Source of the DNA: Balneolaceae bacterium
Lineage (GTDB): Bacteria; Bacteroidota; Rhodothermia; Balneolales; Balneolaceae
Assembly: GCA_017640605.1 (NCBI GenBank)
Contig: JAEPQH010000013.1
Span: 1-64,000 of the forward strand
DNA length: 64,000 bases
Direction: 5' to 3'
The translations under genes were made by a program, and so were the position numbers. The number at the start of each line of letters is the position of its first letter. Within the stretch, counting starts at the first letter, position 1. The notes beneath the pieces were generated by a model. It did no database searches. It saw only the letters and a list, made by a program, of their open reading frames with translations, and was not told where the DNA came from. Shown here piece by piece: positions 32,828 to 33,326 of the stretch.

Positions 32828-32834
32828 GATATTC

Positions 32835-33326
32835 TGCGGAAAAGCCTGTAAGCCGGATTCTGTTCCTCCGCCAGATGGCGGATTCGGCAATCATTTATCT
32901 GGTGCATTCTACCCGACAGCGTCTCGACAAGCGGCGAATACTGCCCTACGTGAACTTGCACCCCACGAGGTTTACCTAGCTGTGTACCTCACGGTAACAC
33001 ACGGTGAGCTCTTACCTCACCTTTTCACCATCACCACCAACGCAGAGCGTTGGAAATTCCAATTTTTAAATTCCAAAATTCAAACAAACTTCAATTTTTA
33101 AACCTTAAATAGTTTAAACATTGTTTGTTAATTGATTTTTTGGAATTTGGAATTTTCCAGCGCTCTGCGCTGGGGCTGTTTCTTTTCTGTTGCACTCTCT
33201 GTCGCTTATTCGTCGCCAAATAAGCGCCTCAGCTACGCCCTAAGGATCGCTGAGCGTGGTGCTTGTTGGTGTCCGGACTTTCCTCCCCGAATTAAAAATT
33301 CGAAGTGATTGCCCGGCTTTTCCGGC
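32835..33326 (-). ncRNA. rnpB: RNase P RNA (class A) with expanded P12
   Basis: On the minus strand the universal signatures appear in order: GAGGAAAGTCCGGAC (P4 5' strand), AGTGCAACAGAAA, GGTGAAAAGGTGAGGTAAGAG, GTAAACCTCGTGGGG and, near the 3' end, GAATCCGGCTTACAGGC. The ends pair: CGGAAAAGCC at 33324-33315 with GGCTTTTCCG at 32846-32837, giving a 10-bp P1. The RNA is about 490 nt, against about 350-400 nt for most bacteria. The excess is a palindromic A+T-rich insert at 33037-33173 where P12 belongs. The RNA removes 5' leaders from tRNA precursors. Confidence 0.95.
33037..33173. repeat. 137-bp palindromic insertion inside rnpB
   Basis: The insert begins with CCAACGCAGAGCGTTGG (33037-33053) and ends with CCAGCGCTCTGCGCTGG (33157-33173). 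The two ends are each self-complementary and also complementary to each other, and the arms continue with AAATTCC and GGAATTT words for about 35 bp. The core is very A+T-rich. Confidence 0.75.

Follow-up and report, generated by a model that had tools for sequence, protein, structure and literature searches.

The window, the 64,000-nucleotide stretch of DNA analysed here, comes from a marine Balneolaceae-type bacterium and carries on its minus strand, at 32833..33324, the rnpB gene for a class A RNase P RNA with an enlarged P12. The gene was assigned to class A by its match to the full RF00010 model, conserved core included (model 1-367, complete; cmscan, 207.9 bits, E 6.1e-66; gathering score 100), and it is present in a single copy in the 3.74-Mb assembly. 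According to the RF00010 alignment, the extra bases of rnpB all lie inside one hairpin loop, P12. A previous sequence-only reading had placed a 137-bp self-complementary element in P12 at 33037-33173, with ends able to pair with each other. Both the position and the end sequences proved to be exactly as claimed.

The palindromic insert (137 nt, 33037..33173, minus strand) was delimited by its sequence, its fold and homologous inserts in relatives, and consists of three parts. In RNA sense it starts with a 17-nt REP-like hairpin, CCAGCGC-AGA-GCGCTGG (33157..33173, minus strand; window sequence CCAGCGCTCTGCGCTGG), continues with an A+T-rich imperfect palindrome of 103 nt (33054..33156, minus strand), relatives of which are scattered through other intergenic parts of the genome, and ends with a second 17-nt REP-like hairpin in inverted orientation, CCAACGC-TCT-GCGTTGG (33037..33053, minus strand; window sequence CCAACGCAGAGCGTTGG). 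Each terminal segment is a hairpin by itself, and the two are also complementary to one another, so that the insert ends pair over 25 nt at 84%.

Pairing within the insert and the ribozyme core

The folding energy of the insert RNA is -62.8 kcal/mol, compared to -30.2 +/- 4.0 kcal/mol in dinucleotide shuffles (z -8.2), and was matched by 0 of 200 such shuffles. The predicted structure is one long extension of P12 rather than two local hairpins at the ends. The ends can thus form the hairpins ascribed to them, but in the predicted RNA fold the long extension is preferred over these. When the whole 492-nt RNA was folded with and without the insert, as the sequence-only reading had suggested, 110 and 111 core pairs were obtained, respectively, 107 of them common to both folds. 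The insert contributes 55 internal pairs and none to the core, and the ensemble expectation for insert-core pairs is 0.03. These predicted folds agree with the proposal that the insert is tolerated as an extended P12 hairpin. Since rnpB is otherwise normal and single-copy, the RNase P RNA with its insert presumably retains activity.

All twelve inserts of this kind that we collected from the family are predicted to fold as a single extended helix. Pairing extends to 94.4% of the cells in their alignment, both sides are changed in ten pairs (3.2 in shuffles), and pairing falls to about 50% when the partners are slid by one column; these values come from a fold derived from the same 12 sequences, whose ends are palindromes. 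Such covariation favours a model in which the insert is under pairing constraint, and does not prove function.

Distribution among relatives

The rnpB gene was recovered in 88 of 92 family genomes. The same kind of P12 insert occurs in 12 of these 88 genes. Counting the window's own, about 53 were assessed by reading P12 itself, and the rest were judged by gene length. The carriers belong to four genera and include G000 and G001 (genus g1), G034 (g6), five g17 species and four g4 species. Their inserts have the same inverted two-hairpin layout, with a degraded 5' hairpin in G023 and a shorter interior in g4. Two further genomes, G005 (g4) and G014 (g13), have a solo hairpin alone in P12 (CCAGCGCTCCGCGTTGG in G005), which corresponds to the outer halves of both terminal hairpins joined together. 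The P12 hairpins of the remaining relatives are of unrelated sequence.

This distribution is patchy at close range. Sister species with and without the insert (G034 and G025, and G078 with G076 as against G081) differ by about 1% in RpoB protein, and at least six changes of state are needed to explain presence and absence on the RpoB tree, from which G002 was left out for its fragmentary gene and absurd branch. The rnpB core tree broadly follows the same genera, and therefore it is P12 that changes and not the whole gene. The comparison with close relatives thus sides with an insertion into a tolerant P12, as proposed, given that P12 is of the ordinary kind in sister species whose RpoB is nearly the same. 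An ancestral extended helix, named in the sequence-only reading as the finding that would speak against insertion, should be conserved with compensatory changes in all relatives. The compensatory changes are indeed found among the carriers, but the universality is not.

Similarity between the inserts is uneven. Those of g17 and G034 (g6) are 75-79% identical and those of g4 67-85% identical among themselves, and each of these two sets looks coherent. In contrast, the G000 and G001 inserts are only 67% alike, no closer than either is to dispersed copies elsewhere. Because the carriers keep its pairing through compensatory changes, the insert is not brand new, and g17 and g6 share it by descent or exchange. 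Its history may be that of a single ancient insertion lost many times, of a small number of insertions, or of recombinational exchange of P12. A selected function of the extension, for instance as a protein-binding site, as an RNase III processing site or in stabilising rnpB, would account for the covariation among carriers and for the identity of the g17 and g6 inserts; nevertheless, we consider it very unlikely, because most relatives, near-identical sister species included, do without the insert, and because tolerance alone predicts covariation when misfolding is harmful to an essential RNA.

To assess the wider occurrence, about 85,000 species genomes were scanned for the hairpin beside the motif that follows P12. 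Five records were obtained, all of them Balneolaceae or Balneola MAGs, which suggests that the insert is confined to Balneolaceae within the limits of the hairpin and motif pattern scanned. The motif itself varies in the family: the usual GGTAAGGG reads GGTGATGG in G000, G018, G028, G059, G061, G023 and G005, all of them carriers of the insert or a solo hairpin, and in no non-carrier read. Its 5' partner changes from ACC to ACA or ACT. The variant may mark common ancestry or an adjustment of the P12 base.

Repeat families related to the insert

The sequence-only reading had called the element mobile-like and proposed a search for further copies. A covariance model of the insert was searched over 59 relatives. 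The highest scores were those of rnpB copies, while the matches outside rnpB, found in six genera, mostly cover insert positions 23-122, a span that takes in the A+T core but neither of the terminal hairpins. These dispersed copies are intergenic, for example downstream of an apparent lysS, between convergent genes or beside tRNA genes (names taken from flanking sequence, not from annotation). In the window's own genome, BLAST matched the A+T interior at C27 with an E value of 3e-7, and C27 has a hairpin on one side only. The G000 and G034 inserts align to dispersed copies with z values of about 5-9 over dinucleotide shuffles, and dense copies of the A+T core number three, rnpB included, in 809 kb of G000, compared to none in a third-order Markov control. 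No intact composite of two hairpins and A+T core was found outside rnpB with the covariance model in the 59 relatives.

At several apparently orthologous intergenic sites (L094, L101 and L109 downstream of the apparent lysS, as well as L093, L097, L099, L100 and L107), A+T-rich palindromes occur in several genera with diverged sequence and retained self-complementarity. They are possibly terminators or old insertions. Since some of the dispersed copies occupy orthologous positions in more than one genus, active movement of the family is not required. Related palindromes of this family also lie beside or between tRNA genes in G012 (L111, L112).

The terminal hairpins have dispersed relatives of their own. 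The hairpin pattern CYARYGCNNNGCRYTRG was found at ten places in G000 compared to one for a reversed control pattern; the stems of this hairpin class are perfect over 7 bp or contain a G-T pair. Most hairpins outside rnpB read CCAATGC-TCT-GCGTTGG with variable outer arms, and in 8 of 35 such copies a second, inverted hairpin of the CGATGC-TCT-GCGTCG type lies at most 150 nt away. These related CCAATGC and CGATGC doublets are dispersed, whereas the composite with both CCARCGC hairpins was seen only in rnpB and is not spread between genes as a unit.

Hairpins of this kind accumulate around RAYT genes, which are present in insert carriers. With wobble allowed, we counted 17 hairpins with a GC-TCT/TCC-GC core in the surroundings of 21 loci carrying Y1_Tnp genes, 45.9 kb in total, compared to 0.34 expected from the G000 background. 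Four of five tested genes, one of them from G000, scored above the cut-off of NCBIfam NF047646 (REP-associated tyrosine transposase). The exact CCARC arms of the insert were found at no RAYT flank among these 21 loci, and inspection of the insert hairpins revealed no unpaired GTAG or CGTC tag beside them, the feature by which the two REP super-families are defined (PMC3733652). Likewise, no target-site duplication of the rnpB insert was recognised. The ends of the insert can still be described as REP-like on account of their structure, the sequence of their core and their inverted arrangement (AGA loop at the 5' end, TCT loop at the 3' end). The term mobile-like rests here on the dispersed relatives of the A+T core and on the hairpin class; movement by a RAYT is less certain, with the intact composite found in rnpB only and its exact arms at no RAYT flank surveyed.

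Six RAYT genes (L275, L276, L277, L282, L289 and L290), encoding proteins of about 176-181 aa, are flanked on either side by REP-like hairpins with the GC-TCT/TCC-GC core, usually no more than about 100 bp away and in most cases inverted. Three other genes in G000 (L083, L084 and L085) encode IS200-type transposases, some with AAGGACT-type hairpins nearby. The IS200-type Y1 transposases of G000 were rejected as a source of the insert, their flanking hairpins being unrelated to it.

These two repeat families bear on the question of whether anything was inserted at all. P12 could instead have lengthened on the spot, through duplication of a palindrome and template switching, with quasi-palindrome correction keeping the ends alike. 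Full two-hairpin composites were indeed found in rnpB alone, all four hairpin arms of G001 have changed together (CTAATGC/GCATTAG and CCAATGC/GCATTGG) as such correction would do, and the solo hairpins of G005 and G014 could be precursors. We nonetheless regard local growth as unlikely: it would not supply sequences common to other loci, whereas alignments of the A+T interior to elements scattered between genes score well above those of shuffles, and the hairpin class is both dispersed and associated with RAYT genes.

Interpretation and known systems

Taken together, the insert is probably a REPIN-like composite palindrome that is tolerated as an extension of P12, is held under pairing constraint and is often lost. 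It would be a non-autonomous element, an A+T-rich palindrome of a dispersed kind enclosed by inverted REP-type hairpins at its two ends, lodged in the P12 loop of a single-copy, otherwise normal RNase P RNA. Being self-complementary throughout, the element would, once transcribed, prolong P12 as one long hairpin apart from the core; the ribozyme would therefore keep folding, and selection would tolerate the element. Once resident, mutations in it would be compensated or removed, the loss of non-pairing variants following from the essential role of RNase P. The insert would also be easily deleted, at times leaving one hybrid hairpin, and the solo hairpins fit a deletion between short repeats of the two ends. 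With less confidence we infer that it arrived by RAYT-type single-strand transposition. In this model tolerance is the simplest account, the P12 tip being dispensable and a self-complementary element extending the helix.

REPINs are inverted REP doublets that form hairpins with compensatory changes and leave singlets as remnants (PMC3116915). The rnpB insert resembles REPINs and BIMEs with their RAYTs (PMC3116915, PMC3733652) in its two short inverted hairpins and in the self-complementary spacer that joins them, in the predicted folds, into one long hairpin with compensatory changes. The solo hairpins resemble REPIN remnants, and the hairpin core of the insert brackets RAYT genes in the family. 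It differs from REPINs in its location inside an essential RNA gene, its low copy number and a spacer that is itself related to a dispersed palindrome, and none of the RAYTs surveyed carries its exact arms. A stricter proposal, in which the insert is a true REPIN and a host RAYT moved it as a single unit, draws on these same correspondences, including the carriers' RAYTs bracketed by hairpins of the same core. It is a tentative possibility at best, since the insert arms are unlike every RAYT-flanking hairpin surveyed, no tag of the GTAG or CGTC type was seen, and the dispersed A+T cores mostly have no terminal hairpins, which makes the core and the hairpins appear to be repeats of two separate kinds. 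We therefore describe a REPIN-like architecture and do not claim REPIN membership, given a composite that is not spread as a unit and a link to RAYTs through the hairpin core only.

Palindromic elements inserted in RNA genes are known from Rickettsia. The rnpB insert is similar in being a palindromic repeat placed at a point where the product can accommodate an additional hairpin, and differs in sequence, in phylum and in its two-hairpin composite structure. A correspondence of the Rickettsia repeats RPE-4 and RPE-6 to CGTC REPs is noted in PMC3733652. For RNase P RNA itself, precedent exists in the STRR repeats of cyanobacteria (Vioque 1997, as cited in PMC2858038). There too the gene for RNase P RNA harbours a genomic repeat family, which some of the related species have kept. 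Unlike these short tandem repeats, the rnpB insert is a single large palindrome of two interspersed repeat types. A literature search, confined largely to papers outside subscription journals, retrieved nothing pertinent on insertions in P12 and no description of a palindromic composite there, whether REP-type or other.

A second precedent is provided by the intervening sequences of 23S rRNA, inserts in helices of an essential RNA that are removed by RNase III (PMC4990558). The rnpB insert likewise occupies a helix of an essential RNA, is patchily distributed and is a candidate RNase III substrate, while the 23S sequences lie in rRNA, some of them encoding S23p. An element that survives in a single-copy essential RNase P RNA must leave the enzyme working, and the twelve natural carriers with their close insert-free sisters form a comparison set for a selfish palindrome accommodated in a ribozyme. 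The extended P12 hairpin, modelled at roughly 50 bp, is a plausible substrate of RNase III. Whether this enzyme clips it to give a naturally split, two-piece RNase P RNA, by analogy with fragmented 23S rRNA, seems doubtful; the carriers make such splitting at P12 directly testable, and an RNase III gene is encoded in the genome.
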